64,000 bases of DNA from Argopecten irradians (Eukaryota > Mollusca > Bivalvia > Pectinida > Pectinidae). The stretch is taken from positions 10,510,755 through 10,574,754 of the forward strand of contig NC_091134.1 of NCBI RefSeq assembly GCF_041381155.1, read 5' to 3'. This document shows, piece by piece, positions 3,801-57,487 of the stretch (positions within the stretch are counted from its first letter, which is position 1; each line of letters begins with the position of its first letter). The position numbers were made by a program, and so were the translations under genes. Below the pieces are notes generated by a model. The model saw nothing but the letters and a program-made list of their open reading frames with translations. It was not told the DNA's origin and ran no database searches.

Positions 3801-3819
3801 TAACATACATTCACAAATC

Positions 3820-19687: not shown

Positions 19688-22600
19688 TTAACTAGGTGGG
19701 TCTTTCTTTACACTGGAGACTCCAGTAGAAGCATCTTTCTCTGATGAGTATGTTGCCCCAATCTCTCTCATTTCTGTTGCGGCACTTTCCTCGTGCCAGA
19801 CTACCTTTTTAGCATGCTGTCTGACACTGTTCATAACACATTCCTCCATCATGGCTTCTGTCAGTACACCAGTTTCTGACGCATAGGCAGACGCCTACAA
19901 TAAAATAAATGAATATAACAAATCTTTTCACAAGTATCCCCCAGCTGATGTATAATGTTGATTATTTAACCTCAATAATCATGGTAATCACTAAACTTCC
20001 AAACTCTATAGTGAACACTCTAATGTTGACTGCCATGCTACAGCTAGTTGGGACATTTCTCTCCCTGATAATCCCTCAGTCATGCTGACTTACCTGCCAT
20101 GCTACAGCTAGTTTGGATATTTCCCTCCCTGATAATCCCTCAGTCATGCTGACTTACCTGCCATGCTACAGCTAGTTTGGACATTTCCCTCCCTGACAAT
20201 CCCTCAGTCATGCTGACTTACCTGCCATGCTACAGCTAGTTTGGATATTTCCCTCCCTGATAATCCCTCAGTCATGCTGACTTACCTGCCATGCTACAGC
20301 TAGTTTGGATATTTCTCTCCTTGATAATCCCTCAGTCATGCTGACTTACCTGCCATGCTACAGCTAGTTTGGACATTTCTATCCCTGACAATCCCTCAGT
20401 CATGCTGACTTACCTGCCATGCTACAGCTAGTTTGGATATTTCTCTCCTTGATAATCCCTCAGGTCATGCTGACTTACCTGCCATGCTACAGCTAGTTTG
20501 GATATTTCTCTCCTTGATAATCCCTCAGTCATGCTGACTTACCTGCCATGCTACAGCTAGTTTGGACATTTCTATCCCTGACAATCCCTCAGTCATGCTG
20601 ACTTACCTGCCATGCTACAGCTAGTTTGGACATTTCCTCCCTGATAATCCCTCAGTCATGCTGACTTACCTGCAACTACCTATTTGGCCATCCTGAATAC
20701 ATGCTAGTTTGGCTAGTATTTCTCTCCCTGATAATCCCTCAGTCATGCTGACTTACCTGCCATGCTACAGCTAGTTTGGACATTTCCCTCCCTGACAATC
20801 CCTCAGTCATGCTGACTTACCTGCCATGCTACAGCTAGTTTGGACATTTCTCTCCTTGATAATCCCTCAGTCATGCTGACTTACCTGCCATGCTACAGCT
20901 AGTTTGGATATTTCTCTCCCTGATAATCCCTCAGTCATTTTAGCTATTTCTAGACACTTCTTGCCATAGTCAAACTCATCTAGTCTTAACCTCCTACAAA
21001 ATCAAACAAAATCAATTTAGAGGCATTTAAAATAGCGATATCACTTTCTATGTTTTCCAAATTACAATTTTCAGTTTTTATTTTAACAAAGAATAAGAGA
21101 AAATTTAGCTGGGACCGGCAAAGTACTTTGTCTTAAGTCAGGTTGTCAAGTTACACAAGTTTGTATCAACTAAGTTCAACTTTATCTTATCCTTGCAAAA
21201 GTAAAAAAACTGTGAAAAAAATATATTTTTATAACTTTTTTTTATACCTACCCCTCTTTTCTCTGTCGCTGGTACCAAACAGTACAGGTCAAAATAACGT
21301 CGCACAAGTCGCTCTCTCTCGTCTAGCGTAGGCGACATGAACTCGACCATCTCGTCAAGTCGATCATTTATAGCCCAATCAAACTGCTCAGGCTGGTTAC
21401 TGGCTAATACTAACATAAACCTGAAATAAAAAAAAATTTACATGATAATAAAGTAACATGTTTGGATAGAAAATTCTCCCATACCTGACAGGGTTATCCC
21501 TCGTGTTGCTAAGGAAAAGATAACTCTGTCTTTTCTGGAGTAGGGAAAAGACAGCTCATACAAGGTTGACAATGATGTCATTGAACATGTGGAGATTATT
21601 GTCCAATACGCCATTGATTGTCAACATTATAAAAATACTTCCTAATTGATTTTTTTTATAATGGGAGAAAAATAATTTTACATGGTTCTGTCAAGTGGAC
21701 AGGGATATCTCAACCCTCGTGAAAGATTTTGGGCCGGCCAACCCTCAGCAAGTTTGAGTTGACCAGCCAAAATCTTTCACTAAAGTTCACATGTCCCTGT
21801 CCACTTGACAGACCCGTGTAAGACACTTTTATTCCTAGATAATAAGCAAACCTGCAAGATTCTTTCTTCTTTAATCCAGTTAGCTGTATAACTTTTTTTA
21901 TTTTATAACAACAGAATATAGAGTCACTTCAAATGTTTAGATGCTCTAAATATAATGATAAAGCCATGATCAGATAGTTTTTGATCAGATTGGAAGAATT
22001 TCAGGGATTGAAAAAAGACAGTGTTTATCTAGTATTCATTAGGTAATTGATGAACCCACCTCCTGTCCTGTCTCTTCTTGGTTAAAATGACAACCATAAA
22101 GTGTATAAATTGACAAAGGAGAGCATTATGAGATTGAGATCATACAGAAGGATGCTTACTTTGTAGACTGTTCTCCTGTCCTATATAGAAAAGCGTTGAG
22201 TGTGGCCCGGAGATCTTCACTTATATGTTCCTGGAGATAATCAACAGAAAATAACAGTAAAGAGTAGCTGCATTTATACATAGCACAATCAATACCATGT
22301 AAAACATGGTCTTTTAATTTCATCATTTACTGTCATAAAAAGTCTACTACATATTATTGAAACTATTTAATTCACAGTGATAAATTTTCTCACCTTCTTT
22401 CATACCACTTGTGAAGTCCATCAAATTACATTGGTTTGGTACGATTAGTTTAATGTCCTATTATGAGCCAGAATAATTTAAGTACATGCCAGGTTTATAA
22501 GCCAGAGTACCCACAGAAAAACCACTGACCAGCAGGCAGTATCTGGCAATTGTCCCACATGAGAGTTGAAACTCTCTACCCAGAGGTGGAGGGCTTGTGG

Positions 22601-25600
22601 TAACATGGCAGGACATCTTAATCCACTCATAAATAGGCCATCCCTAGGGAAAACTATTTGGTTTGCAGTATTCAAATTCATTGAACAAAGGAAGCATATG
22701 ATTGAGATCATAACTGCTTATTGTAGACTGTTCTCCTGTCCTATATAGAAAAGTTGAGTTGGCCCGGAGTCTTCGAACTTATATGTTCCTGGAGATAATC
22801 AACAGAAAATAACAGTAAAGAGTAGCTGCATTTATACATAGCACAATCAATACCATGTAAAACATGGTCTTTTAATTTCATCATTTACTGTCATAAAAAG
22901 TCTACTACATATTATTGAAACTATTTAATTCACAGTGATAAATTTTCTCACCTTCTTTCATACCACTTGTGAAGTCCATCAAATTACATTGGTTTGGTAC
23001 GATTAGTTTAATGTCCTATTATGAGCCAGAATAATTTAAGTACATGCCAGGTTTATAAGCCAGAGTACCCGCAGAAAAACCACAATGACCAAAAGTCAGT
23101 ACTGGCAATTGTCCCATTGCTAGAGTTGAATCATAACTTACTACCCAGATATCAAGGGCTTATTAATTGTAACATGTCAGGACATCTTAATCATTTTTGT
23201 ATAAAATGCGACCACCCCCGGCAGGGAAAACTATTTGGTTTTGCAGTATCAAATTCAATATGTGTTCAATAGATTGAAATCGCTTTAATATCAAATTAAA
23301 TGTGTCGACTAATGTAAAAATAACTTTTTAAAAACTACATAAAATACCATGTGTTTAAGAAAACTTTCTGAGAGAACATTTATATTCAAGTCGTTGGCTT
23401 TGAAAAAATTTTCACCACCTTTCTTTCTCTTTCTTAAAAATGCATCTGCTTCATCTACAAACAGTAGTAACCTGTAAAATGATGTAAACATATATGCAGA
23501 GATTGATAACTATTGTTGATAAATAAATATAAAAGGTTTAGTAAAGTTTCAAAGTTTGATCTGGTTTTGAATATGTGTACTGGGTTACCAGTCAGCAACA
23601 TAACATTGTAAACTAGTAAAACTACATTCAAATGTCAGTCTATTACAGATCAAAAGTAAATTTTTTATAACAGGAGAATATACTTTCACATTTTTCATCA
23701 GAAATCACGATGGAGGAACATAAACACTCATCCATAATATTTAAGATATGTCACAGTATGTAGAATGGGCCCGTCAGAATGATATCTAAATGACAAAAGT
23801 TACTTCTTTTAAAAAGTCTTGCTACCAGTAATCATAATAAAGACCTTATCATCATAATCAATTGGATTTTATAAGATATAGACACAGTATTGCAATTTTT
23901 GTATTAAAGAAACATCCCCGGCAAGGTGAAATGTAAATTATATACATATAACACATGAATGAATGATTTTGTTAATCAAACTGTTCAAGAGAAAATTGTG
24001 TTTAATCATAGGTTATTTTCAAATTATGTGTCTTAATAAATATTCTTTGAATATAAGCAATACCATTTTGCACCATGTGCTTTTGGAAAACTGATCAATC
24101 TGAGAGAACTTTTCGATACTATGGCTTTGAAAAAATACCACAGAATTTTTTTGGGATGCAAAAATGCATTGCTTCATCTACAAATATTTAGTAACCTTGA
24201 AGTAAAATGATGAACAACCAATTTCAATGGTGGTAATGAGATTGAAAACTATTTTTTTGTAATAAATACAAATATGTATTAAATGTCAAAGTTTGATTGA
24301 TAGAGAAAAAATACCATTGTCGGAGGTGGAGCATCTTTAAAGTAAATACCCAATTCATTTTCATCACATGGTGGTAAAACTACACTAGGTTCAAATTTTG
24401 TCCTTACCCTATTCAGATATGGTGCAAAAAAAAGTTTTTTGTAACATGGCTGTATTCCTTTTCCCCATTATCAAAATTTACATTTTTTCAAAAGTTACTT
24501 CTTTTAAAGTCTTGCTGTTAGTAAGTCTTGCTGTTAGTTCATAATAGACAAGACCTTATCAATAATCAATTGGTAATTAATAATTTTACAAGGACGATAA
24601 TTTTTGTATTAAAGATGCTCCACCACCCCCGGCAGAACATAATTGGTGTTTAATCATGGTTACATATGTCTGATTAACACAAAAAAATAATATAAAATAA
24701 TTCATTTTGCTTTTGGTGCATGATGCAAGTCAGTACTTCATTCCATATAGAACATAGTACCATAGAATTTCTTCGGGATGCAATTAATTAATTTTTGATA
24801 TTTTTATCTTGAAGTAAAATTAAAGCTCAACATTTTTCAATGGAGGTAATGGTGTCAAGTAAGTAACTTTTGTAACTGAAGACAAATACTAATTCGTCTG
24901 CTCCATGTTTCTGATACAGAAAAAATACCATTCGTCGGCGGTGGAGCATCTTTAAAGTAAATACCCCAATTCATTTTCATCATTTGGTATTAAAAGACAT
25001 TATCTAATTATACACTAGGTACTTGATTTTGTCCTTACCCTCTTTTACTGGTGCTAGCCCAATCAAATGTTTTGTGCATGGCTGTCACTCCGTCTTTCCC
25101 CATTGGCGCGACATCACCCCCTGTCATAATGGCATAATCCATCCCCGAGTGTTTAGCAAGACTCTACAACATTAAACATTTATATTAAGTCAAGAAACAA
25201 ACTTCAGATATCGTATGTACCGGTATTTACTGTTAAAAACTATCGATATAGTATCTTGCTTGGGAATATTTTTTTTTATCTGCATCACTGAGTGCTCAGA
25301 GGAGGTTAGTTAAAGCTCTCACCTATTACAGTCCAAGTTTAATGATACATGTACATGCATATTCATCCAAAAGCATCTATTCATCAATACGCCTACTATT
25401 TGGTTTAGATGATAATTTGAATCGGTTAATATATGAAATAATTTTCATACAACCTTATTATGTTCATAATTTTCATACAACCTTATTATGAAGAACCTTT
25501 GTCTGAGGAATTTGAGTACATATATACCTCTTCCCCAGGCCTATATAGCATACAAAGATAAACAATTGCACCTCTCTACAAACAATGAGACTACTAACCA

Positions 25601-32068: not shown

Positions 32069-32260
32069 TTCGTTTGCAACCCAATTCGGCTTTCAACCTT
32101 GATGTCAAACACACGTGTGTAAGTTTTCCCCGGTTCTGCGTAACACTCATTTCCGGTTGATACACTAAGGGGTACTACCTGTTGATCCGCTCTATAAGCG
32201 GTTCGTACCCAGTCGTAACACGCTGGTTTACTGTTCAATGCCAACATTTTCATTTTGAAG
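32069..32260 (-). promoter_or_regulatory. putative ATAD3 promoter and 5' UTR
   Basis: The less AT-rich stretch directly upstream of the ATAD3 start codon. It holds an E-box CACGTG at 32112-32117 and an ETS-like AACCGGAAATG on the minus strand at 32147-32157, motifs common in housekeeping mitochondrial gene promoters. The transcription start is not determined. Confidence 0.45.
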
Positions 32261-35014
32261 GGTTCAAAACAGATAACTTAACGTCGCTTGTATTTTTAAA
32301 ATATCATAACATTAAATGAAGCAAGAAAAAATAATATATTTCAAGAAAAAATAATATATTTTAAGAAATATTTGTACTATGACAGAAAAAACAAACTTTC
32401 ATAAATGTCTTTCAAAACGCGTGCATTTACAGTAATCCATATTTCTTCAGTGAATGTACATTAAGTATATGCCAAAATGTTATAAATATTTGTAGAGTAG
32501 ACCAATTACATGCACAAAGTGCACCATAATTTATTATTATTAAAAACATTTTTTTTTTGTATATGGCCAGAAACACATATACATAGAGATTGGCAACTTC
32601 GCCTTTTTTACGATCGGCAGCGGTACCTCTGTATGTCCCTAGGGGCTTTTAGATAAACTCTAAAATACTCAAATACAACAGAATATTTAACTTTCATATG
32701 TTATAAAAGTTAAGTAATTTTCAGATGGTTTGAGTACTATTTTGGGAAAGACTATATATATATATATTAATAAAACAAAATGCACTTCCGGTTTTGAATG
32801 ACTGATTTTCGAAAAACCAGGTAAAATTGCTTATTTTCATACTCTCAAAAATCATATTAAATAACATCATTTGGGAAAACTGATCATATCAACCATGATA
32901 TATTGTTTAAACTTTGTGTTGATGCAAAAATGTCATGTTTAAAAGAAAACACTTAAAAGTAGTTAGCCAAGGGGAAATGCCTATAAACTGGAGGTCCTTC
33001 TGACTGTCCACATAGATAAAGAAAGAGTTTCCAATCTCTATATTTATATATGTTTCTGATATGGCCAACATCTTTGATCCTATATTGCTGTAAGTGGCAA
33101 GCATGATAGTCCGTTCTGGTTATTGAAACTATAATAACTATATAATGTACCTACATTTATTTTGGAGGCCATCTTGGATTTTCTTTTATTAATATTTTTT
33201 TTTTTTATTTTATCACATAACAGAAGTCTTATCCTTCATTCTAGAACTGATTTGGTCATATATCATCAACTAATGAAAAAGTTGTAATATTTTCTATGTT
33301 TTTGTTCAATATTCAATATGGCAACCCTCTTGATGACATAATGACTGAATGGAAGTGTATAGAAAAGCAGGATTTTTTTTAACTATATACCTCATTCAAA
33401 TGAGAAATATTTTGAGGTATAATTCGCCTGCAGAAATTCTTGAAGCAACCTATTTTTTCTTGATGTTTTTTTTTATCAATTATACATTGTACAATTGGTA
33501 TTTAGACAGCCATCTTGGATTTTCATATATCTAATTTTACAGAGGACTCCAGCTTTTTGCATAATGGTTCTATGTGAATAAAAAAATGTACTTAATTAAA
33601 AAAATTACCAAAGTTATATCAGTTTTAATCTATTGGCAAAAGTTATTCATTTTGATAACATCATACTGGTAAAAGAAACTTCAGCACCTTCTAATACCCT
33701 CATCAATAAGTCATACAGATTTATGTAATTATCTATATATGTATATATTTCCTTCATGTTGCACATTTTAAAGAAGGTTTGGATGTCCTAACAGCCAGGG
33801 ATTACTAGCCAGGTTTGTTGTAAGCGGATTCAGTTCAACAGACAATAATGGGAAAAAAGAACGTTTTATGTCGGGACATTTTAGAAACAATGGACTAATG
33901 TGGATTACAACCTATGCCTGTAACATTCAGTTCAACAGACAATAATTAAAAAGAACGTTTAATTTTAGAAACAATGGACAAATAAAAAGTTTCACAAAAC
34001 TTTATTACCATAACAAACAATAATTTGATCTTCATAATATATATTTCATTCAATTTCAAAATATTTCATTAAATCAAATTTAACAGAAATTGGGAGGCGC
34101 AATACATGTATTACCTATTTAAGCTCTCTCCCTTTCATCTTCATATCAATTAATATAATTTCAAGTTAATGAAGTGTATAAATGTAATCTGGTTACCATA
34201 TAAAATGTGATATCTGTTTTTTGAGTTAATTGGCAAAAAGGGTTAATATTGAAATACAAATCCTTGCCTATCATTTCTACAAAGACTCTAACACCCTGAA
34301 AGGCATTTGTAAAATAAAAACAGTTGAGCCTTGTTCACAGGACTTAGAGGAGTTAGGTTGGTCCCAATAAAATGTAAGATAACATATTCAGTACTCTGAC
34401 AATCAAACACTATCAGAAAAGATCCACATTTGCATCAACCTCCAGGAAACCAGGTTTGCATGTATTTGTAAAAAGGTCAAGAAAAGAAGGCATGCGAAAC
34501 AAAGAATGTAATTGTGAAATAAAACTATTAATCAAAGAAGTTATTTAAGAAAACCAATCCACATTATCATGCCATTTAAAACAATTTATCTATATATTTC
34601 AGATGAATGAAACACACCCATCAAAGGATATAACTTAGAAGAAAAATAAAATAACTCTGGTACACATCAATACCTTCATTTACCAAAAACATATCTATTG
34701 TGATTCTTTTGCAAAGTTGATTTTAGTACAAATACTTTCACCAAATGAGATGATAAAACACACTTTTTAATTAAGCATAATAAAGCCCAGATACATACAT
34801 ACTAATACAAACCTGTGTCATATAAACTTTTAATGAAAACCATCCAAAATTGTTGCATTATATCTATGCTACAATTTACCAAAATACATTCCATAAAATT
34901 CACTGAAAAGAATACAGTAACAATAAATAGTCAAATGGCAGAAATGATTCAACAGATCAAAAAGAATACCATTGAAATTCAACATTTTTGGGAAATTATA
35001 AATATATTTTACAT
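32261..35014. other. AT-rich intergenic DNA between ATAD3 and SFT2D3
   Basis: No gene is supported. GCCATCTTGGATTTTC recurs near 33168 and 33510, and TGGCAACCCTCTTGATG near 33319, which suggests fragments of the dispersed repeat better seen at 59549-60010. A decayed local duplication is listed separately. Confidence 0.5.
33828..33985. repeat. decayed direct duplication of about 100 bp
   Basis: TTCAGTTCAACAGACAATAA, AAAAGAACGTTT and TTTTAGAAACAATGGAC occur twice, about 100 bp apart. The second copy is shortened. Confidence 0.7.
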
Positions 35015-35231
35015 ATACCATATTTGACCCAATAAACGCCAAAAATGAAAAGGATATGCTTATATGGTTTTGGTCTGTCCTTATGCCCGGGAAATTGCAA
35101 TTGAGTCCTCAAAATGGGAAGGGGCGCTTATAGCTATAGGGACATGGACGATTATTGGGTTGAATACAGTATATGTAATTGGGAAGGGGCACATATAGGG
35201 ACATGGGCGCTTATTGGATCAAATACAGTAT
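35015..35231. mobile_element. MITE with ATACCGTATT-type ends, copy 1
   Basis: Left end ATACCATATTTGACCCAATA and right end CGCTTATTGGATCAAATACAG are inverted repeats. An internal segment (GGGAAGGGGC then ATAGGGACATGG) is duplicated. It matches the cleaner copy at 60407-60602. It lies just downstream of SFT2D3. Confidence 0.75.
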
Positions 35232-35658
35232 GTATAACTTGCTGTTGTATTTTTTTTTTTTTAATTTGGACATATAAACAACACATGTTGAAATGTAAAT
35301 TGAATTATTACAACAACAAAATCAATAACGAAAATATTCAACTTTGTGTATACAAAATAAGATTTGTCATATCTTTCATCTTTATGTATTTTGTATTCCC
35401 TACTATATTTCTCTCATCTATTACACATACTCCGTAAATTCCCTTTGTTATGTAAAATATCTCTCGGACAAAACAAGCACCAATATAATTACTTTCAAAT
35501 CAATGTATCTCAAATCACTTCCATTGCAGGTCCTCACATTAATGCATTTTTTACCAATCCAGCCACTGAACCAATGAAATGTTCTCTTTAATATCATATA
35601 CATTCCCACAATCACCAATCACAGCCATTGTAAGTTTTTACCAATTAGATTCTCTATT

Positions 35659-43500: not shown

Positions 43501-46500
43501 GACATGACCAAAGCTCTTTTCAGTTTATTCAGAGATTCAGGGAAATGCTGTTGAAAGTAAAATAAGAGTTTAATTTTTATACATTCTGTATCGGTATCCG
43601 ATTTTTATCAAAAATCATTCAGTTGATTATTCCGTTTATTTAATAGATAATATAACAATATCAATTTGATTTCCATCACTATAGATATCATATATCTTTA
43701 TCAGGCTCCAAGATTTATACAAGTTTATAATTAATTGTTCTGTAAAAAGCTTAATATATATTATATTGCTAAAAAAATGTTCTTCAGAATAACACTGTTT
43801 TAAAAATGATTAACACCAATGTTCAATGGGTGTGTCAAATACATATGTATATATAAACTGAAAATATTTGCTAATGAACACAATATTTATTCAAAGTGAT
43901 GTATAAAAAGGCTTGATTATGATGGTAGTGACAATTTTTGAGTGGCTATAAGTTAGTAATTAAATGCAGTGATTATATACATGTATACGGTCAAATTAAT
44001 TCAAAGTGCAACATGTATAAAAAAAACCCATTCAATTATGTGTTAAAAAGGTAGTGATTACCAGGCCTAGGATGGATGGAAGATTGACCTACATTATAAA
44101 TTGAATGTGTCTTTATTTTTTATTGTGATGATATCAGATTCAAGAATACCAAATAGCATGTGGTTGTGGAGAGGATCCAGTGTATCTGACAAATAATGAC
44201 CGGCCATGTCAGCGACTTACTGAGAACTTTGATCATGTCTTTCTCCATGGGTAAGATACTTATATATGATCATGATACAGTAAAGTACATAATATATTCT
44301 TGAGAGTAAATGGTGAAGTGATTTCCTTAATCATAAATGTCAGGGACATGTACCATTTTAAAACTGGGAAAAATTTACAATGTATTTTTCTTGAGATACA
44401 TGTATATTTTAGAGAATTTTCCTTTTATTTTAGAAAATATTTACATAAAAATGGGGGGAAAAAAGCAAAATTTCTCAAGGGGAAGGGGCCTTTATTCAGC
44501 CCTAAATGTACCTAAAATATCACTGCAATGTGATTATCTACTTAAAATTTTAAGTACTTTTCATAATGAATTCGTGCTTTTCAACACTTTCCTTCAAATT
44601 AAAATCTAAAAAGTACATTTAAATACATTACTACATAAACTACAATAATTGTCATGTCAAACTGCACCATGCAGGAAAATATTTTCCAAATTGTTGTTCC
44701 TAATCTTTGTCAGGCCAATATTGTCCTAAATAAGAAGTTTACAGATTTAGTTATAGCTGAAATGAAGACTAACAAATGATAGAAAAATTGTTGGTAATTG
44801 TGATTACATTTATATGTAGACGAAACAGATGAGAATGAGGTTAGAGGACTCACAGAATTAATTTGTATTACAGTCTACGACACATTAATTACGGTTACTG
44901 GAAAGTGGTGAAGGACTTTACCAGGAAGGATGCTGTTAAGGAGATAAGTCGACTTCGCAATATTACCACAGATCTTGGTCGAGGTAACTATTTATAAAGG
45001 AGATCAGTCATTTCTGTAATATCACTACATATCTTGGTCAAGTTTTAATTACCATCTGGAAATTATAAAAGGTAGACTGTGTCTCATGTCAACAAATTCA
45101 TATTTTAAGCAATAGAAATAAAAATGCACAAAATTCATTTTTTAGATATGGAAAAAACACCCAATACAGTTTGTAATTTGATGTTGTAATTATATAATCT
45201 ATGTGGACATTATGCCTTCCAGTGAGAAAATGTGATTTTGTCATTATACACAGCAGATAAGAGTATTTGCAATATACTAATCTTTCATAAATAAAAACAA
45301 AAATTGATATGAATTCTGTGTTCTGTTTTTTTATAGGGAGAGCCTGGCTGATGATGACTTTAAATGAATGCGTCCTTGAAAGTTACATCAGATGTTATCT
45401 AGACAACAAAAAACTAGTCAAAAAACATTATGTACGGGAAGCATTTGTCCTTGACGAGCAGGTACAGAAATAGATTGGGGCACTAATATGGCATACTCCC
45501 TTAGTTATTTAACAGTGATGTATACCAGGCATAATACTAGGCATGTCCTTATATCCGAGTCAATAATGCAATTAAATGTACTTGGAATTCCAAAAGATGT
45601 ATCACACTTGTCTTAAGGGATTATCTCTGAACTTCAAAATTCCTCATGTTGGTTTTCCTTTACAGTTATCGACATTCCTCTTTCCTGATTTTGAAGACCC
45701 ATTTTACAAAATAAGACATAACTTGAAATCAATACTGTAGTCATTTAATGAACACTTTATATTCTTCCATACCACAAGTACAAAAACAAAAGAACAAAAT
45801 AATTTTCATTTTAATATTTATTTTGCTCCTTTGATTAGAAGACCTTTAAGTGAATTATCTCCCCTGTACAGTTGGGTCATATCTTACTACGTATGGATTT
45901 GACAAGTTGGTTTTACTTAATATGGTAACAAATTATACCTCAATTTCATTACAGAGGATGAATGTTCTACTGACCTTGACCTCAGGTCTTGAGTATGCCA
46001 TCTTTCAGCTTGACTTCGTATGTATTATTCATCATTGACTTTTTGAAAAATATTCTTATTAACATTGATCAGAATTTTTACACTGATATTTCACAGTTAA
46101 CATTGATTAATCGTACCTGACATTTGGTGCAACATTGTATAGGATCATGTTTACATGTTAATTATGCTGTTAAATCTTGTTTATTTTCAAGTGTGAGTTA
46201 ACAAAAGTCAATTATTGCTGTTTTAGGATGTGCCCTACCTTGACCTTGGGACATATCCACCAGGCAGTCGGTCAAGGACAAGTTCAGCCAATTCGGCTAC
46301 ACAGGAGGATGACCATCTGTCTTTGTGTAGTATGGACAGTTTCACATCTCCAAGGGCACGTAATTCAGTAAGTTACTCCGCTCAAAGGGCACACAATTCA
46401 GTAATTTACTCTGTTCCAAGGGCATGTAATTCAGTTAGTTACTTCGCTCCAAGGGCACACAATTCAGTAATTTACTCCGCTCCAAGGGCACATAATTCAG

Positions 46501-49500
46501 TTAGTTACTCCGCTCCAAGGGCACACAATTCAGTAATTTACTCCGCTCTCCAATGGCAGTATTTCAGTAAGTTATTCCGGTCCAAGGGCACGTAATTCAG
46601 TAATTTACTCTGCTGCAAGGGCTCGTAATTTAGTAAGTTAGGGTGCTGGTAATATATGGCTATTAATTGGCGCATCTCAAGCTAACAGCTTAAGCTTGTG
46701 TCAATGGGGAATACAGAAAGTCTGTTAATTCTGAAATTTTAAACATGGATTAAATGTACAGGAGTAAAATCCCTCTTATTCTTTCATTTTTACTGTGCAT
46801 ACAGTCACATGAAAATATGATGGCATATATGAATTATAAGTTATGTTGTTGATCATAACAAAATGTTTTAACTGGTTTTATATTAACGAAGGTGATATGT
46901 TAGATATATGTGTAAAACACTGACTTCAACACCCAGAAAAAATCTTCTTTTTAGCTCTGTCAGTTGAGATTTATTACATATTATAAGACAAAATCTGGTC
47001 TTTGGTTTTATTTCGTTAATTCAAGTCAAAGAAATAACTTTACCTCAATTATAAATGTGATATGTAACATGCCTAACATTTAATTTAAACACATATTTAA
47101 TGTTTTCTGACAAATGTAAATTCTGTTTCTCTCTAGTCGTTCACCAGTGCTGTAGATTACACAGGTAAAGGTCGTAACGAGAGTGACACACACAGCCAGA
47201 ACGGTGAGGAGGCTAGTCATTCTAAAGCAGGATCAGTCGACTCAGGAATACTGGTGAATGATCGAGACAGCCATATGGACAGCAAAAGGTCAAGTTTCCA
47301 TAGAGGTCACGATCGTGAGCTCTCATTGGAAGAACACGAGGAGGAGTTGAAAGTTATCCGTGTGTCTGCTGGTAGGAAAAAGAAAAAGTCAGGGAAGAAA
47401 AGTCATAAAGTGCACAGAGAGGAAGTTAAGGAAGATGTGCCTAAACAAACAGCCCCAGACCATTCCCAGTCTCAGAATTCATGGTTGTCCCACGAACCAA
47501 GTTTATCTGAGATATTAGATTTTGATGATAGAGATTACAGTAAACTTCCTGACCGTTCACCAGGTGATGGGATGGAGAGTAGTCAGGATTCATTAGATGT
47601 GAACCTTGTACAGCATGGAAATGACAGGACAAAGGTCATGGAGAATTATAACATTGCATTTGTAGACATGAGTAAGGAGGACTCGGACTATAATATATAC
47701 AAACATACACCCATACAGAACTCACAGTCAGACTATTTTAATGTGTATAAAGATTCTCAAAATTCTCAAATAGTATCCGCACAGGGGGGTTCCATAGAAC
47801 AACAAGCCTTAGATTTAGCTGCTGCAAGTTCAAAATCTAGTGAAAATAAAACTGGAGTTATGTCCCCTGAAAATGATTCACTAGCGAAAGTTCATGTGAT
47901 TATGGAGAAAACAGAGAGTATAGAAACATTAGAGAAAGACATGGAAAAGTTGTCAACAGAACTGAAAAGAATTTCACCTGTTCATGAAGATAAGGAATTA
48001 ATTAATGACATGGGTGTAAGGAAAACAGATGATACTGTTGTTGATTTGCAACAGGACAGTGATGAGAAAAACTCAGAAATACAAACTTTTGGTGCTGAAA
48101 CTTCATCTTCTCATATACAATCCGAGGTGGATGGGAAAAGTGCAATATATTCATCATCACCTACTCAGAAATCGGCAACATCTGAAATGCAAGATCGTGT
48201 GGATGACATGCTGAGCCAGTCAAATCCTGACCTCCACCCCCGTATGTTTGAAGAGGAGCCAGAGGACATTGATATTGAGAATGGAAATGTTTTGGAGGAT
48301 GAGGAAGAAACAATAGCTGGAGAAGTCAGGTAAATATGTCCGAGTAATTATTGTACAGTGTTTATTCTCATTCATTGTCATTGCTCAATAAACTGGAACT
48401 TAAATTTTAGTGTGAAAGGATCTTAATGTCTTGAACCATAATCGGATTCACACATGTATTAAACTAGTTCTACTGGTGATTACCGGTACAACAAATGGGT
48501 CGGGAAAGAAAATCATGTATCATGGGGTAAAAAACATGGTATAATACATGTATATATCTAGTTCAGATAAACCATGTTGTGTGCTGTATTGTTTTCACAC
48601 AATCCACCTGGGTCCAGGCTCATAAGAAGAACTGTTTTGATGTTTCATTCACCATTTCAAATCTACATTAGATAATAATCAGTATATATTATTATTCTTC
48701 AGATTGAACAACAATACAAAGCTCTACCTGATGTTAGATGTATTTGATGATTCAGACGAGGAGTTCATCAAGGTAAGGATTATTTCTAGATTTTGATAAA
48801 GTTTGGTAATGACTGTATTAGTCACGTAAAGAAACTATTTAAGTCATACAATTTTAAAACTGTGGCCATTTTATGAATTTGTATGCCTCCTTCAGTACTT
48901 ACAGTACTTTGATTAAATAATATCAACATAAAAAGAAACTAAATGGTATTAATAATGCCTTCATCTGTTTGGAAAACAGATCTCTGTTAAAATGAATGTT
49001 TCCAAGGTGGTTCCTAATTGTAACGTGATAATAACAATACAGACAGTTTTTTATAAGGATGAGGTAACATATCAAACACTCTGATCAATGTATCATTTAT
49101 TTGGGGGGGGGGGGAGCAATTTGATCTTTGGGGAATACCTCACAGTCTTGGAGAAAATTTGAGTGTATATATATATGTTTTACAGGCCTTTGCCACGCGG
49201 ACTGGACACACGGAAGGAGAGGCTAACACTGTGTTTTTGTTGGTCACTAATCGTGCTCTTCACCTCCTGTCTCAGACTCAGAGTGATCACCACTTTGTCA
49301 AGGATTCCTCCATCCCATACCAACAACTCGACTACATCTCAGTAATGTATCAAAATATCAACTGTAACATGTACTTCAGGGTCCCATTATATGTTATCAC
49401 TGGCCCTCCCTCTGTGGGTTTCAAGTTCAAAACCCATGTGTGGCAGTTACCATGTACCGACTGTAGGCCTGTGGTTTTTCCCAGTGCTTTAGCTTTCCTT

Positions 49501-52500
49501 CTCCTCCAATGTTGAGCTAGCATGTTCTTTAAATCCCCTTGTTGTTTAATAGAATGATAAACAAAACTGACCCAATCCAAATGAGCCACAAGTTTGCTTA
49601 AGTGTAGGACTGTAATTATTTTTAACGAAAATTTCTAGTAAAGGCTAGTAAATGTACATGTACAATGTATAATTTGTTTGTTTGTATTACAGCTGAGCTT
49701 GTCGGATCAAGTGATTCAGATTGTTTGTCTGAACCGACGAAAACAATATTGGATTACAACGGGAAGCCAGCTTGTAACAAGGTAAATGTCATTATAGCGT
49801 CAACTGGATTCTTATCGACTTGTTTAGCTGATATTCCCTATTAAACAGTTGTACTACAGCCTCATTACCATGTCAGGGTTAAAAAGGACTCAATTTGTTT
49901 GCTCCAGTAAAGTCAAATTAGGTCTAACAAACGCTACTAGACACTCTTTAGCTAGTGAATTAATGTCATGACTTTTTGCTGAAAGATCATCTAAGGTAGC
50001 AGACCAGAGAAGAACAGCCTGGCCCCGGTCTATATTTTTATTAAGTGGGGAGCCCCTGTTTTGAGCCATGCATATAAAATTAAAAATCAAATATATTCTG
50101 ATATTGGTACATCCAATATGGAGGGTTTGAATTTTTTTGAAGTTTCAATTTTTTCAAAAATAAACATAACAAAAATGGGTTAGAGATTACAATTCTGGGC
50201 TCCTCCTGAAGTGCATCTTGACCGGAAATGCTAGCTTTACTTGAAGGGAAATCCATGGCGCGGTTTAGGCAAAAATATTGAAAAATCCACAAAATCGACC
50301 TATGAAATGAATAAGCTTATTTTGCCATTGTGATAGAAGTGCTCAATTTAAGGCAGGTCTTAAGAAAAAAATTGTGTACAATTTTCTGCAATTTTGGGCT
50401 AAAAATCATGATATTTTGCAATTTTTCAGGTATTTTGTCGTTGTTACCATGGTATTCACATGCATGAATAAGCACAGAATATGGCCAAATCTGTATCAAA
50501 ATATCAAATTGTAATTGCAAAAGTTGTGCTGATTAATTATATATAGATACTTTTGTACAGATTTTTTAACAGTTAAATGACTTATCAGGGGTTTCATTAT
50601 CTTTTGGGAGAGGCGGTACAATGGCAATTTCAGGGGGTACTTTTCTATACCATCTGTATGCTATCTACGCCTGATTTAGGCTAAATAACATTACCAGGTA
50701 GATAGCATATAGATAGTATAGAAAAGTACCCCCTGAAATTGCCATTGTACCGCCTCTCCCAAAAGATAATGAAACCCCTGTGACTATATCTATATTTCTA
50801 AGGCATGCGTCTTATTTTCATAGATTGTCCAAATCTACTGTTTTCTGCTACCTAAATCTCCTGGTGTTTTTTTGCCTAAAATCTATATTTTTTCGCATAT
50901 TTCGTCAAAATTTATTAGCAACTCAACATGTTAGCAATAAGACTTGGTTAGTCGACATGATGCATACAAAATCTTGATCAACCACACATAAGAAGTGATT
51001 TATAGACATGTAAGGTATCACTAGATTTAACAGGGGATAGAATCGTAACCATCAGGTATAATTTAGGTGTTTGTTTTCTAAATTTATAGATCCCCATTAA
51101 TCTACCAGTATATTAATAACAAAAACTAATATCAATATTGGGTTCCCTGCAAACACAATTTAACTGTCTTTACAGTAGAATACAAACAAAAGCTTTATTG
51201 TTTTATTCCTGGGATGTTTCAACTTTGCTAATCAGGAATTTTAGTCAGGTTGTTTTTGGAATGATGCCTATAAATTGTACGAATGATTTATTGTCAAGTC
51301 TATTGTATTTTTGGAATGATGGCTATCAATTGTCATATATACATGTATAATATAATATAATAACATATATTTGTATAACAGGTCGATTGTTGGATGCCTG
51401 AGTCAAGCTATAGACAAGGGTGACTTTGATGTTCCTAAGATTTCAGTTTTAACTGATGCAACCACACAGAAGATCGCCCTGAAGAAGTATGCAGCCAAAG
51501 AATGTCAATGTGAGGTAGGCAAATCTCTCAGAACAGTAATAATGCAGCCAAAGAATGTCAATGTGAGGTAGGCAAATCTCTGAGAATAGTACCTATTCAG
51601 ACAAAGTATATCGATGTGAGTTAGGCAAATCTCTCAGAATAGTACTAATGCAGTCAAAGAATATCGATGTGAGTTAGGCAAATCTTTCAGAATGGTACTA
51701 ATGCAGCAAAAGAATATCGATGTGAGGTAGGCAAATCTTTCAGAATAGTACTAATGCAGCCAATGAATGTCGATGTGATGTAGGCAAATCTTTCAGAATA
51801 GTACTAATGCGGCCAATGAATGTCGATGTGAGGTAGGCAAATCTCTCAGAATAGTACTAATGCGGCCAATGAATGTCGATGTGAGGTAGGCAAATCTTTC
51901 AGAATAGTACTAAATGCGCCAATGAATGTCGATGTGAGGTAGGCAAATCTCTCAGAATAGTACTAATGCGCCAAATGTCGATGTGAGGTAGGCAAATCTC
52001 TCAGAATAGTAAATGCAGCCAATGAATGTCGATTCAGCAAATCTTCAGAATAGTACTAATGCAGCCAATGAATGTCGATGTGAGGTAGGCAAATCTCTCA
52101 GAATAGTACTAATGCGGCCAATGAATGTCGATGTGTGGTAGGCAAATCTCTCAGAATAGTAATAATGCGGCCAATGAATGTCGATGTGAGGTAGGCAAAT
52201 CTTTCAGAATAGTACTAATGCAGCCAATGAATGTCGATGTTTGGTAGGCAAATCTCTCAGAATAGTACTAATGCAGCCAATGAATGTCGATGTGTGGTAG
52301 GCAAATCTCTCAGAATAGTACTAATGCGGCCAATGAATGTCGATGTGAGGTAGGCAAATCTCTCAGAACAGTACTAATGAAGCCAATGAATGTCGATGTG
52401 TGGTAGGCAAATCTCTCAGAAGAGTAATAATGCGGCCAATGAATGTCGATGTGAGGTAGGCAAATCTCTCAGAATAGTACTAATGCGGCCAATGAATGTC

Positions 52501-55500
52501 GATGTGAGGTAGGCAAATCTCTCATAACAGTGCTAACAGTGCTAATGCAACCAAAGAATGTTAATTTGAGGTAGTGATGGGTTTACACAAATCAAATGTT
52601 TCATGACTATACATGTAATTGTTTAAACTTAATTATCAAATGTTTATGAACCCTTGTTTATGACTTAATGTATGTTGAAATTAACGGCACGAAATAAGGT
52701 ATACGAATGTATGTGTAAATAACTTGGTTTACAGACCTTTTATGTATGTTAGGAGTTTTACCTTGGTATTTGTTACAGGTATCAGCTGTTGAAATCTGCT
52801 GTTACTCACTCGTCCATTGGGACGACCCTACAACTAAGGGGAATAACTCTGACAGTACGTACAGAGAAGGACACCTCCTGTATAAGATTAATGAGGCCGG
52901 GGCATCGCTCGGTAGCACCCTTCTTAGCACTGTCCAAGATCCAACAGCTTTGATTTATGGGACGTCGTGGAAACCAGCCTACGTTGTCCTCAAGTATGTT
53001 TACAGGGGTTGTATGGGGAAAGTTCTGTATATGTACAAATTTTAGCAGATAGTATTTCAGCAGTATTTATGCTTGGGAAGCCAGTGAATTAAATGAGTTC
53101 TATTTGAAATTACTTTTCAACAGTGCTGTGTTATATGTATTGATTAGAATCCCAAATTTCAAACTGGTTACTATTTTGGTCAAATATTGATCGTTCAAAC
53201 GTAAGCGTGTTTAAGATAGCCTTTTGTAAAGTATTGACTAAGATTTGCTGATTTCTCTGACTTCCTCAGAGATGGTATGCTGTGTGTGTATGCCAATAAG
53301 ACCAGCGGGAAGCCACTCCACTTTGTCCAGCTGGGAGGTGATGATTGTATTGGCTGTCGCCGTGCCTCCAACACGGACCGCGACCACTGTATCCAGATCA
53401 TCATGGGTAATGGTACCACCTGGCAGATCGCCCTGGCTACTGATGTAGAGGCCAACGAATGGTTACAGAGCCTGTGTAGGGCTGTAGCACAGGGGCTTGA
53501 GGTAACATTACATTCTTCATATCAAAATAAAACTGTCTAGGATAACAAGGGTTTTGTTCTGACTTTAAGAATTTGTTGGTCGTTGTTTGACATTAAAGTT
53601 GTTGTTTTTCTTTCCTGGTTTAATATTGCAAGATCTAATATCTTTCACTACACCCCTTACAGGACACATCAAAGATGGTGAGTTGTCTCCCTTGCTGCCT
53701 TGTACTGACCCCTCAGAAATTGTTAATGTGCCATGAGGATGTCCAGACAAGTTTCCTTAGGACTCTGGGCAGTGCCAACCTACTGGACATTACCAACGTA
53801 CTGACCGACCCGTCGGTAAATAACTACTGTATCCTTGTAAGTACTTTCAATCTTTCGTGCTTGTAGCATGCTGGGATAAAGGGCTACTAAATTTGTTCAA
53901 ATGAATGACCTTGACCTTCATTGAAGGTCACGAGGGTCAAATAGGCTTCAATCTTTAAACAATTTATCAATAATGAAGAAACGTAGAGACCCTGATATTG
54001 GGCCTGTAATAAGTTTACAATTAAAACATTGTATACTAGAAACATTTTGGTATTAATTAAAAAGTGTTTCTGGTATACAATGTTTAAATGTTCATCAAAG
54101 AAAACTTGACGATTATCAGCATATTTAATTCTTTTTTAATTGATCCCAAAATTTTGTGCCCTACTGTATGCTTATAGACTGTGTTTTCCCTCATACCTAT
54201 GAGACTGTAAATAATTAGCCCATCTCCTCAATCTGACCTATTTTCATTTGTAGGAGTTTGAGTCACATGACCAAGGGGTCAGTGCTGACCAATGGGTACT
54301 GTACTTTAATGACGGTCCAGAAACTGAACGATTCATGCAGGCTCTCTCTTCAGCATGGTCAACTCATTATCAGGTAAATATTAAGCATGGTGTCTCTTGG
54401 TTATCTTTGTTGTTCATGTCTGCGATGCCACATTTCCGTCTTTGACATGCTTTATATTTATCTTACTGTAAAAAGAATATGATATTTTGTGATAAAATAG
54501 CCTGGTACATGTATTTCTCCTCATGTTCCAATCTGATACTGTTTTGTTTTTGTTTACACTTTCTCCTGTTTCAATCTGATGCTGTTTTGTTTACACTTTC
54601 TCCTGTTCCAATCTGATGCTGTTTTGTTTACACTTTCTCCTGTTCCAATCTGATGCTTTGTTTACACTTTTTCCCGTTCCAATCTGATGCTGTTTTGTTT
54701 ACACTTTTTCCCGTTCCAATCTGATGCTGTTTTGTTTACACTTTGTCCTGTTCCAATCTGATGCTGTTTTGTTTACACTTTGTCCTGTTCCAAACTGATA
54801 CTGTTTTGTTTACACTTTGTCCTGTTCCAAACTGATACTGTTTTGTTTACACTTTCTCCTGTTCCAATCTGATGCTGTTTTGTTTACAATTTCTCCTATT
54901 CCAATCTGATACTGTTTTGTTTACACTTTCTCCTCATGTTCCAATCTGATACTGTTTTGTTTACACTTTCTCCTGTTCCAATCTGATGCTGTTTTGTTTA
55001 CACTTTCTCCTGTTCCAATCTGATACTGTTTTGTTTACACTTTCTCCCGTTCCAATCTGATGCTGTTTTGTTTACACTTTTTCCTGTTCCAATCTGATGC
55101 TGTTTTGTTTACACTTTCTCCTGTTCCAATCTGATGCTGTTTTGTTTACACTTTGTCCTGTTCCAAACTGATACTGTTTTGTTTACACTTTTTCCTGTTC
55201 CAATCTGATACTGTTTTGTTTACACTTTCTCCCATTCCAATCTGATACTGTTTTGTTTCACTTTCTCCTCATGTTCCAATCTGATACTGTTTTGTTTACA
55301 CTTTCTCCTGTTCCAATCTGATCTGTTTTGTTACACTTTCTCTGTTCCAATCTGATACTGTTTTGTTTACACTTTCTCCTGTTCCAATCTGATGCTGTTT
55401 TGTTTACATTTTTCCTGTTCCAATCTGATGCTGTTTTGTTTACACTTTCTCCTGTTCCAATCTGATACTGTTTTGTTTACACTTTCTCCTGTTCCAATCT

Positions 55501-57341
55501 GATACTGTTTTGTTTACACTTTCTCCTGTTCCAAACTGATACTGTTTTGTTTACACTTTCTCCTGTTCCAATATGATCTTTACTGTTTTGTTTACACTTT
55601 CTCCTGTTCCAATCTGATACTACACTTTTTGTTTACTGTTTTGTTTACACTTTCTCCTGTTCCAATCTGATACTGTTTTGTTTACACTTTTCCTGTTCCA
55701 ATCAATCTGATGCTGTTTTGTTTACAATTTCTCCTGTTCCAAATCTGATACTGTTTTGTTTACACTTTCTCCTGTTCCAATCTGATACTGTTTTGTTTAC
55801 ACTTTGTCCTGTTCCAACTGATTGTTTTGTTTACACTTTGTCCTGTTCCAAACTGATACTGTTTTGTTTACACTTTCTCCTGTTCCAATCTGATGCTGTT
55901 TTGTTTACAATTTCTCCTATTCCAATCTGATACTGTTTTGTTTACACTTTCTCCTCATGTTCCAATCTGATACTGTTTTGTTTACACTTTCTCCTGTTCC
56001 AATCTGATACTGTTTTTGTTTACACTTTCTCCTGTTCCAATCTGATGTGTTTTGTTTACACTTTCTCCTGTTCCAATCTGATACTGTTTTGTTTACACTT
56101 TTCCGTTCCAATCTGATACTGTTTTGTTTACACTTTCTCCCTGTTCCAATCTGATACTGTTTTGTTTACACTTTCTCCTGTTCCAATCTGATATCTGTTT
56201 TGTTTACATTTTCTCCTGTTCCAAATCTGATACTGTTTTGTTTACACTTTCTCCTGTTCCAATCTGATGCTGTTTTGTTTACAATTTTCCCGTTCCAATC
56301 TGATACTGTTTTGTTTACACTTTCTCCTGTTCCAATCTGATCTGTTTTGTTTACACTTTTCTCCTGTTCCAAACTGATACTGTTTTGTTTACACTTTCTC
56401 CTGTTTCCAAACTGATACTGTTTTGTTTACAATTTCTCCTGTTCCAATCTGATACTGTTTTGTTTACACTTTCTCCTGTTCCAATCTGATCTGTTTTGTT
56501 TACACTTTCTCCCTGTTCCAATCTGATACTGTTTTGTTTACATTTTTCCTGTTCCAAACTGATATGTTTTGTTACATTTTCTGTTCCAATGATCTGTTTT
56601 GTTTACACTTTCTCCTGTTCCAATCTGATACTGTTTTGTTTACACTTTCTCCTGTTCCAATCTGATACTGTTTTGTTTACACTTTCTCCTGTCCAAACTG
56701 ATACTGTTTTGTTTACACTTTTCCTGTTCCAATCTGATACTGTTTTGTTTACACTTTCTCCTTTCCAATCTGATGCTGTTTTGTTTACACTTTCTCCTGT
56801 TCCAATCTGATACTGTTTTGTTTACACTTTCTCCTGTTCCAATCTGATACTGTTTTGTTTACACTTTCTCCTGTTCCAATCTGATACTGTTTTGTTTACA
56901 CTTTTTCCTGTTCCAATCTGATACTGTTTTGTTTACACTTTCTCCTGTTCCAATCTGATGCTGTTTTGTTTACACTTTCTCCTGTTCCAATCTGATACTG
57001 TTTTGTTTACACTTTCTCCTGTTCCAATCTGATACTGTTTTGTTTACACTTTCTCCTGTTCCAATCTGATACTGTTTTGTTTACACTTTCTCCTGTTCCA
57101 ATCTGATGCTGTTTTGTTTACACTTTCTCCTGTTCCAATCTGATACTGTTTTGTTTACACTTTCTCCTGTTCCAATCTGATACTGTTTTGTTTACAATTT
57201 TTCCTGTTCCAATCTGATGCTGTTTTTGCTTTCTTTGAACAGGTGGATGTCCCTGATATGACCATTTCTGATGTAGCACTTCAGAAAAGTTGTCGGGATA
57301 TGGTGTCAGTTTTACGGTCATCTCTGGAGGTCAAACAATGA
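40540..57341 (+). CDS. PLEKHM2: PLEKHM2 (SKIP)-like RUN and PH domain adaptor, 16 exons
   Basis: An Arl8 effector that in vertebrates couples lysosomes to kinesin-1. Coding exons: 40540-40611, 44138-44250, 44874-44983, 45337-45461, 45955-46017, 46227-46367, 47137-48329, 48703-48772, 49186-49341, 49693-49781, 51382-51514, 52779-52993, 53270-53501, 53663-53836, 54254-54373, 57243-57341. The product is 1034 residues (human 1019) and every junction is in phase. A RUN domain occupies about 8-170 (GYWKVVKDFTRKDAVKEI, LGRGRAWLMMTLNE, LTSGLEYAIFQLD). A disordered acidic region of about 400 residues, mostly exon 7, starts near the conserved ELKVIRVSAGRKKKKSGKK. Conserved blocks follow (TGHTEGEAN, QQLDYIS, SVLTDATTQKIAL). 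A PH domain lies at about 785-905 (WKPAYVVLKDGMLCVY, GCRRASNTDRDH, EANEWLQSLCRAV) and the family C-terminal module after it (CLPCCLVLT, CHEDVQTSFLRTLG). Introns 6, 11 and 15 contain minisatellites abutting splice sites. Confidence 0.96.
40879..41828. mobile_element. 942-bp TTAA-target element with long TIRs
   Basis: Flanked by TTAA at both ends. The left end ACAGGTTGGACACAACCCTG and the right end (inverse: ACAGGTTGAGCACAACCCTG) form terminal repeats of about 55 bp that continue with CATATGGGTAA and ACCCATTTGAGTAACAGTTA. No transposase is encoded. It contains the smaller TTAA MITE at 41053-41418, which inserted later. Confidence 0.85.
41053..41418 (-). mobile_element. TTAA MITE, copy 5, reversed and nested
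   Basis: 358 bp between two TTAA copies, ends AGATGCTCCACTGATGACA and GTCGGCGGTGGAGCATCT. It is the reverse complement of the 3820 copy and sits inside the 942-bp element. Confidence 0.88.
42344..43018. mobile_element. non-autonomous element with AGCTCGCCTATTC ends and internal triplication
   Basis: AGCTCGCCTATTC opens it (with a nearby inverse, GAATAGGGGAGCT), and GAATAGGCGAGCTTTGCTGT near the right end is inverted to it. Inside, a unit of about 168 bp starting at GAGCAAGTTTCT (42450, 42619, 42786) is repeated three times. It lies in PLEKHM2 intron 1. Elements with such ends are frequent in bivalve genomes (from memory). Confidence 0.75.
46347..46640 (+). repeat. 33-bp tandem array of PLEKHM2 exon 6 end plus its 5' splice site
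   Basis: About nine units. Each combines the last 18 exon bases (CCAAGGGCACGTAATTCA) with the first 15 intron bases (GTAAGTTACTCCGCT). The first unit is the real exon end at 46367. Later donors alternate between GTAATT and GTTAGT, with GTAAGT again at about 46567 and 46634. Since 33 is divisible by 3, the first several units stay open in the exon frame (repeating YSAPRAHNSV), up to a stop near 46593. Confidence 0.95.
49388..49572 (+). mobile_element. SINE-like repeat fragment, forward orientation
   Basis: GGGTTTCAAGTTCAAAACCC, GGCAGTTACCATGTACCGAC, CTTCTCCTCCAATGTTGA and TTAATAGAATGATAAACAAA match, in reverse complement, the fragment at 22436-22650. It lies in PLEKHM2 intron 9, just after the exon 9 donor, and keeps an open frame that is not part of the gene. 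Confidence 0.55.
50586..50780. repeat. near-perfect 80-bp-arm palindrome
   Basis: Starts CAGGGGTTTCATTATCTTTT and ends with the exact inverse. The arms differ at only a few sites over about 80 bp, with about 30 bases between. It is a foldback element in PLEKHM2 intron 10; a diverged relative lies at 29930. Confidence 0.93.
51491..52560 (+). repeat. 53-bp tandem array of PLEKHM2 exon 11 end plus its 5' splice site
   Basis: About 20 units. Each holds the last 24 exon bases (GCAGCCAAAGAATGTCAATG then TGAG) and 29 intron bases beginning GTAGGCAAATCTCTCAGAA. The first unit is the true exon end (donor at 51514/51515). The second unit keeps the exon-type sequence; distal units share derived changes (AATGAATGTCGATG), which indicates later homogenisation. 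Reading through the first donor reaches a stop at about 51571. Confidence 0.96.
54024..54085. repeat. small hairpin in PLEKHM2 intron 14
   Basis: AAACATTGTATACTAGAAAC at the left and GTTTCTGGTATACAATGTTT at the right are inverted with one mismatch, separated by about 20 AT-rich bases. Confidence 0.75.
54512..57224 (+). repeat. 37-bp minisatellite filling PLEKHM2 intron 15, about 70 copies
   Basis: The unit is TGTTCCAATCTGATACTGTT followed by TTGTTTACACTTTCTCC. It has many small indels and a GATACT/GATGCT polymorphism. The last unit runs into the native 3' splice region: CTGAT near 57216, then a T-rich tract and GAACAG at 57237-57242. Each unit thus contains a branch-point-like CTGAT with a T-rich tract, but no AG acceptor. 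Each unit also carries TGTTTAC, the forkhead consensus. Confidence 0.96.
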
Positions 57342-57487
57342 CCGATGACCTAGTTCAGAGCTACAGCCATCTCTGGAAGTCAAACATGACCTTGACCTGG
57401 AATCAAGATTATGGTAATCTCTGGTTGTTCAGCAAAGACCTTGACCTAGTTTTGGAATTACATTCATACCTGGAGGCCAAGCCATGA
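57317..57487 (+). repeat. degenerate repeat across the PLEKHM2 stop codon
   Basis: TCATCTCTGGAGGTCAAACAATGACC, in short form ATCTCTGGAGGTCAAACA, contains the end of the coding sequence. It recurs as CATCTCTGGAAGTCAAACAT (about 57367) and CATACCTGGAGGCCAAGCCA (about 57464) in the 3' UTR. This is old local duplication of the C-terminal coding end. Confidence 0.6.

Follow-up and report, generated by a model that had tools for sequence, protein, structure and literature searches.

Minisatellites of probable mirage type span splice donors of ATAD3 and PLEKHM2 in a 64-kb window

Background

Tandem repeats that run across exon-intron boundaries have been described in amphioxus under the name of mirages, in Adh3 and also in the globin genes BflGb6 and BflGb9, and the portions of that report available to us give units of 10-160 bp and, for two haplotypes of BflGb6, arrays of 3 and 6 copies (PMC3087553). 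According to the same portions, RT-PCR suggests regular splicing of the globin mirages, the edges of the arrays escape homogenisation, and mirages are proposed by their authors as a source of introns (PMC3087553). As far as this partial text goes, accounts of mirages cover a few genes of amphioxus. Like repeats are found in PGBD5, where the first repeat abuts the 5' splice site, and, by citation, in troponin C, as stated in the accessible part of a further report (PMC3902484); the available sections of two others mention tandem repeats, though not across boundaries (PMC2206037, PMC6905558). Among the papers listed by searches of one open-access library, none reported boundary-spanning minisatellites in a mollusc, and the one genome-wide count was human.

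Here we analyse a 64-kb stretch of genomic DNA, referred to as the window, in which an earlier note had reported four large minisatellites at splice junctions and had proposed a genomic mechanism that amplifies such junctions. Three of these arrays and a 59-bp tandem dimer conform to the structural definition of mirages, their units spanning an exon-intron boundary in the same manner (donors 20884, 46368, 51515 and 44984). The window adds a new and dense group to a class of repeats that is known but has been little studied.

Results

Gene models and repeat inventory

Genes were modelled on the basis of their open frames and splice signals, aided by tblastn searches with query sequences that we take to represent human ATAD3A and PLEKHM2. 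In the models, ATAD3 (Pfam ATAD3_N, 1.2e-7) is encoded on the minus strand and PLEKHM2 (PH_PLEKHM2, 9.5e-13; PH, 7.4e-7) on the plus strand; the window further contains an exon of a rhodopsin-family receptor (7tm_1, 1.1e-25) and, on the reading of its open frames, a putative SFT2-like gene. GC content ranges from 30 to 37% by 8-kb block and, together with the genes present, may point to an invertebrate, possibly a mollusc. The models comprise 31 introns (14 in ATAD3, 3 in the SFT2-like gene and 14 in PLEKHM2), and the junction list used for statistics holds 31 donors and 33 acceptors from these predicted models. Three donors are approximate (ATAD3 near 23421 and 21251, SFT2-like near 36875), the exons concerned not joining in frame. 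The exons near 23421, 21251 and 36875-36960 are conserved, do not join or read in frame and lie beside short homopolymers, which makes uncorrected long-read error look likely and suggests it as the source of the frame breaks in ATAD3 and the SFT2-like gene. Splice sites were scored with a hand-written position matrix; the working donors of the arrays described below are predicted from frame, score and homology.

Repeats were detected with Tandem Repeats Finder (TRF) and a tandem scan at periods 18-160. TRF recovered all four previously reported arrays, with units of 64, 33, 53 and 37 bp, which are thus real; the window holds six large arrays in all (43, 64, 168, 33/66, 53 and 37 bp), and the two that had been passed over lie more than 1.1 kb from modelled junctions. 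They are a 43-bp minisatellite of about 60 copies (7597-10242; TRF 7630-10197; nearest modelled junction at 1.1 kb) and a 168-bp tandem repeat of 3.1 copies (42431-42946; no modelled junction within 1.1 kb). The 43-bp array sits 1.1 kb upstream of the rhodopsin-family receptor exon. Thirteen short-unit tandem events reached a score of 16 or more in the window, against none across four simulated windows, low-complexity events having been filtered from both, so these events are not due to chance. This catalogue drops low-complexity events (for example 32322-32368) and periods below 18, and it contains neither the 168-bp array nor the minor TRF rows at 18913, 24507 and 41755.

Searches of Rfam gave no match at gathering scores, a PDB search with one ATAD3 exon gave none, and the 64-bp and 37-bp units had 0 matches in viral contigs; a search of viral and genome contigs with an ATAD3 exon produced no confirmed relative. 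Dispersed repeats of about 300-400 bp occur in both orientations at 3817-4187, 5987-6327, 24635-24962, 37621-38007 and 41002-41418, with pairs 74-87% identical, and the family is probably a transposable element.

A 64-bp array at the donor of the last ATAD3 intron

The 64-bp array (20030-20938, minus strand; TRF rows 20030-20673 and 20718-20938) counts 14 copies of a unit made of the final 54 nt of ATAD3 exon 14 followed by GTAAGTCAGC, 10 bp of intron. Its predicted working copy occupies 20875-20938, with the donor GT modelled at 20884, and the exon end there aligns with the human ATAD3A query; the reading continues ASAYASETG, again in agreement with that query. The last intron is modelled at 19895-20884 (minus strand, 990 nt), of which about 135 nt would be left without the extra copies. 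GT is present in 13 of the 14 copies and lost in the last, a stub row beyond the array being left uncounted, and the 12 internal decoy donors all score 13.0, the score of the working donor. If used, every one of the 12 is predicted to lead to the same stop after five codons. Transcripts with such premature stops would be targets of nonsense-mediated decay; this is doubtful for the nearest decoy, whose stop sits 49 nt from the junction.

Variable columns number 0 of 10 in the intronic part of the unit and 5 of 54 in the exonic part, counts too few to judge constraint on the donor, and the last copy alone stands apart from the others. Scored as acceptors, eight of the AG|GT junctions in the array give -1.4 (seven) or -2.9 (one), which places them within the spread seen for the 31 acceptors of the models (-5.3 to 8.1; median 4.1).

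Two arrays and a dimer at PLEKHM2 donors

The 33-bp array (46338-46648, plus strand; TRF 46348-46640) has 9 copies across donor 46368, each unit consisting of 21 exon and 12 intron nucleotides. All 9 copies keep GT (one stub row beyond the array uncounted). Its higher-order unit is 66 bp, donor variants largely alternating between GTAAGT or GTTAGT and GTAATT. Six of the eight decoys are weak, scoring 0.4-0.9 against 5.1 for the working donor, and the other two reach 5.1 and 4.3. The first five decoys lie in frame without stops and would add blocks of 11 residues; the last three lose the frame.

The 53-bp array (51488-52574, plus strand; TRF 51489-52536) counts 21 copies, the last partial, across donor 51515. 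In its unit, 26 nt from the end of an exon whose translation closes with KECQCE are joined to 27 nt of intron; the reading continues VSAVEICC, and the exon end aligns with the human PLEKHM2 query. GT is kept in 18 of the 21 copies and lost in 3, which gives 17 decoys with GT. Of the decoys tested, 13 of 14 are predicted to reach a stop within the array, and the nearest would shift the frame with no stop across the 90 nt read of the next exon. Six junctions scored as acceptors range from -7.4 to -11.6, outside the modelled range. At unit column 10 the base of the exon is found in the first five copies and in the last, whereas 14 of the 15 copies between differ and one has lost the base; the edges were therefore not homogenised with the middle, as in unequal exchange. 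Exon-derived and intron-derived columns are equally variable in both PLEKHM2 arrays (8 of 21 versus 5 of 12 in the 33-bp unit, 12 of 26 versus 10 of 27 in the 53-bp unit), so the copies carry no sign of coding constraint. The introns holding the three donor arrays measure 990, 769 and 1264 nt, which are not multiples of 64, 33 and 53, respectively.

The earlier note had described the units as precisely the conserved end of an exon plus its own GT donor. That picture holds for the ends at 20884 and 51515, which align with human proteins; the residues before donor 46368 (PRARNS) are without homology support, so a conserved exon end is not established for the 33-bp array. The donor does lie in the exon-side unit, and each unit also takes in 10, 12 or 27 bp of intron (64-, 33- and 53-bp arrays). 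Frame, score and homology agree with the note that the exon-side copy would be the working exon end, and the units, compared by eye, are indeed unrelated to one another.

A 59-bp tandem dimer (44938-45042, plus strand) lies across PLEKHM2 donor 44984, in intron 2, and its second copy lacks GT. Together with the three arrays it makes up the four junction-containing short-unit events of the window, all of which are at donors, with the predicted working copy on the exon side and a common lay-out of exon end, GT and 10-27 nt of intron. Masking of decoys by RNA structure was not seen in the predicted accessibility of the donors tested, among which the first donor was the least accessible in the 64- and 33-bp arrays and joint least in the 53-bp array. 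On the acceptor side, a 55-bp imperfect dimer at 51253-51333 ends 49 bp ahead of PLEKHM2 acceptor 51382.

An AG-free array before a PLEKHM2 acceptor

The 37-bp array (54520-57226, plus strand; TRF 54548-57226) has about 73 copies of a unit that holds no exon sequence and combines a CTGAT resembling a branch point with a T-rich tract. The array stops 17 bp short of the modelled acceptor 57243, which bears out the earlier description of a fourth array beside an acceptor; since it spans no boundary, it is a neighbour of the mirage class and not a member. Not one AG dinucleotide occurs in its 2707 bp, where composition predicts 51, and the AG-free run upstream of acceptor 57243 extends over 2740 nt, compared with 16-103 nt at the 30 other acceptors. 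AG content in the other five arrays, on the strand examined, is 0.8 to 1.5 times the expectation from composition. First-AG scanning from whichever CTGAT motif would arrive at one and the same acceptor.

Selection against AG was considered as the cause. When circularised, 843 of 5564 intronic 37-mers of PLEKHM2 (15%) are free of AG, and 28% of those close to acceptors. The chance that mutation created no new AG is 0.32 with 12 distinct substitution types and 0.003 if all 61 substitutions are independent; indels amount to 51 deleted and 26 inserted bases over the 73 copies. With many 37-mers AG-free at the outset and few distinct mutations, we take the lack of AG to fit tolerance and not to prove selection.

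Other local duplications

Each of the 31 introns was searched for copies of the exon borders that flank it, and seven were picked out: the introns of the four arrays, ATAD3 introns 10 and 11, and PLEKHM2 intron 2. Besides the dimer, several of these duplications extend the list of the earlier note. A head-to-tail duplication of 571 bp (22109-23257, minus strand; predicted working exon 22160-22230) contains a whole ATAD3 exon with both flanks; its halves, 22109-22680 and 22680-23257, are 88.6% identical, and the non-working copy keeps the acceptor AG, is broken in frame and lacks the donor GT. The middle of the pair is identical over a long stretch and its ends are diverged, with many small indels, a pattern for which either gene conversion or an assembly artefact would account. 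Two older ATAD3 copies lie nearby, both on the minus strand: an older decayed local copy (23285-24297), in which 24013-24297 is 68% identical to the region of the exon near 23421-23471, and a decayed copy of the end of exon 10 with its donor (24395-25085; copy 24395-24453, source 25026-25085, donor 25038). In PLEKHM2, an imperfect 49-bp repeat (57301-57488, plus strand) runs over the stop codon (57339) and on into the 3' UTR.

Are junctions enriched for duplication?

Among the hand-picked TRF arrays, 4 of 6 lie within 18 bp of a junction (P 0.0009 in the whole window, 0.006 in the gene region), and of the TRF minisatellites with units below 100 bp, 4 of 5 contain or abut one (random placement, P 0.0002-0.011 by region and slack). 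We rejected simple placement of hand-picked arrays as evidence of enrichment, since it is post hoc and the signal is weaker in the unbiased catalogue and the all-size test. In the short-unit catalogue, 4 of 13 events contain a junction (null mean 1.10, P 0.019 for the whole window; null mean 1.92, P 0.11 for the gene region), and 7 of 13 lie within 60 bp of one (P 0.0014 or 0.045, respectively). The remaining 9 events contain no junction. Growth to at least 9 copies is seen in 3 of 4 donor-spanning events and 2 of 9 others, numbers too small for a good test.

In a count of local duplications of every size, with each array reduced to two copies, 8 of 64 junctions fell inside one, against 8.1% of grid positions (230 of 2831); by rotation there was no junction enrichment in the whole window (8/64, P 0.23) or the gene region (8/63, P 0.47), in a test that is blind to the 33-bp array (donor 46368) and the dimer (donor 44984). 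A matched donor-shaped test at score 36 found 5 of 31 donors, compared with 4.0% (whole window) or 5.8% (gene region) of background (nominal P 0.007 and 0.031); at score 40 the count was 4 of 31 (P 0.020 and 0.073), and at score 44 the excess of donors was gone (2 of 31, P 0.22 and 0.40). Acceptors were not enriched in the corresponding acceptor-shaped test across four thresholds (3 of 33, P 0.11-0.41). The binomial P values ignore clustering, and the tests, being post hoc in a window selected for the pattern, do not amount to a fair genome-wide comparison. Donors are thus weakly and nominally enriched for local duplication, depending on the threshold.

Discussion

The proposal that a genomic mechanism amplifies splice junctions finds no support as stated: junctions overall and acceptors are not enriched, donors are so weakly, and such a mechanism is not needed to explain the arrays. 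We favour, as the probable explanation, minisatellites of the mirage type arising where local duplication is frequent, here at more than one scale, and copies that span a donor are tolerated. A local tandem duplication would straddle an exon end by chance; the exon-side copy, whose position we infer from frame and homology, would keep the whole exon and a working donor while the extra copies fall into the intron, and selection would not remove them. Such a duplication would be tolerated because the first copy and its donor leave the exon intact. Tolerance of duplication from exon into intron would also explain why each of the four junction-containing short-unit events falls on a donor and has its working copy next to the exon. 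The same filter may apply at the stop codon, where the 49-bp repeat of PLEKHM2 shows a geometry similar to that of the donor repeats. Once in tandem, an array may grow and be homogenised by unequal exchange or slippage; the dimer at 44938-45042 is a two-copy case, matching the expected seed stage. The extra donors would be decoys, use of which would mostly bring a frameshift and an early stop, at some cost in mRNA and with no new protein, and the 37-bp array may persist before its acceptor since its unit has no AG able to compete as a 3' splice site. Array anatomy, decoy strength, predicted stops, absence of AG and frequent local duplication in the window come directly from the analysis.

Some observations sit less easily with tolerance of donor-spanning copies. 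Plain tolerance need not predict the nominal enrichment of donors (5 of 31), the 33-bp array is a misfit to the expectation of no new protein, its first five decoys being in frame, and decoys might be used in RNA. Where donors are duplicated, the intron-proximal one is often preferred; silent decoys in the three donor arrays are therefore a puzzle, and predicted accessibility does not favour the first donor.

We regard as improbable a process in this genome that favours exon ends over other DNA for duplication or expansion, linked for instance to transcription, R-loops or the chromatin of exon borders. It would account for the presence of 4 of 5 minisatellites with units below 100 bp at junctions (P 0.0002-0.011) and for the 5 of 31 donors over a background of 4.0-5.8%; the window, however, was chosen for its pattern, the donor effect depends on the threshold and is absent at score 44, neither acceptors nor junctions overall are enriched, the 60-copy array of 43-bp units lies at no modelled junction, and the units have, by eye, no common sequence. 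Very improbable, in our judgement, is a role for the arrays as functional splicing devices, through which the 33-bp array would vary PLEKHM2 in steps of 11 residues, or dual-specific or recursive AG|GT sites in the 64- and 53-bp arrays would remove the array stepwise. The first five decoys of the 33-bp array are in frame and free of stops, eight AG|GT junctions of the 64-bp array score as acceptors within the modelled range, and a human polyubiquitin array is spliced in this way according to the available part of its report (PMC10809524). Against such devices stand the lack of coding constraint in the copies of both PLEKHM2 arrays, the weakness of six of eight decoys in the 33-bp array, the acceptor scores of -7.4 to -11.6 at the six junctions of the 53-bp array, and intron lengths of 990, 769 and 1264 nt that are not multiples of 64, 33 and 53.

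We give least weight to the idea that artefacts of assembly from noisy long reads account in part for the copy numbers and perhaps also for the 571-bp exon duplication. Out-of-frame joins at ATAD3 introns 11 and 13 and at one SFT2-like exon, all beside short homopolymers, agree with it, as do the 51 deleted and 26 inserted bases among 73 copies of the 37-bp unit and the identical mid-stretch and indel-rich ends of the 571-bp pair; yet the copies of the 64- and 53-bp arrays share patterned variants, and a wholesale artefact would not put the exon's own end into the first unit of three arrays.

With mirage-type arrays and tolerated copies as the preferred reading, 64 kb of one genome brings together seed-like (2 copies), grown (9-21 copies) and decayed-looking stages. 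Two questions become testable with it: how the spliceosome, in a living gene, settles on one donor when many are equal (the last ATAD3 intron has 13), and with what frequency a duplicated exon end turns into a new exon or intron. A 2.7-kb stretch without AG and with dozens of branch-point-like modules, ahead of a modelled acceptor, offers a natural test of first-AG scanning. These arrays are a good natural test of splice-site choice and not proof of a new copying machine. A bolder generalisation, which we hold to be unlikely, would treat donor-spanning minisatellites as a systematic class in this lineage: exon ends would seed arrays more often than other DNA, the spliceosome would reliably take the first of at least a dozen equal donors, arrays before acceptors would have to stay free of AG, and the arrays would yield large, silent, fast-changing introns as a standing source of new exons and introns.

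Comparison with known systems

Intron gain by tandem genomic duplication, as in the work of Rogers, of Gao and Lynch and on the potato RdRp gene, relies on a duplication that supplies ready-made splice signals, according to the accessible parts of the reports (PMC4974935, PMC3443670). The earlier view that separate tandem duplications of splice-signal DNA took place in two genes, related to such proposed routes, is supported. In the Rogers-type model, as given there, duplication of an exonic AGGT creates a new intron within an exon; the effect here is a longer intron, with a protein that by homology would be unchanged. Units of the 64- and 53-bp arrays run from exon into intron, and the joins between exons agree with the human homologues used as queries, so the intron looks pre-existing.

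Human UBC and VCX3A hold dual-specific splice-site arrays in which tandem units each carry a splice signal, to follow the available portion of that report (PMC10809524), and the junctions of the 64- and 53-bp arrays share their AG|GT. The repeat units of UBC and VCX3A, as described in that portion, are coding, with the special case of an intron that is a multiple of the unit, and neither property was found in the present arrays. A 38-bp minisatellite in intron 6 of human TERT (PMC3948165) and the intronic repeat CeRep25B of C. elegans (PMC4039745) have been linked to splicing in the parts of the two reports at hand, and resemble the present arrays as intronic minisatellites of coding genes. 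The TERT array is described there as lying more than 1 kb from any junction and acting by RNA pairing.

The closest likeness is to mirages. The present set differs from those of amphioxus in its setting, a genome of about 34% GC and other genes, and in including a 73-copy AG-free array beside an acceptor; globin mirages come with RT-PCR, and these arrays are known from DNA. Copy numbers at three donors here are 9-21, compared with 2-7 in the globin and PGBD5 cases as far as the available texts report them. As in mirages, many but not all units of the 64- and 53-bp arrays carry splice signals, and in the 53-bp array the internal copies are homogenised and the edge copies excluded, as column 10 records.
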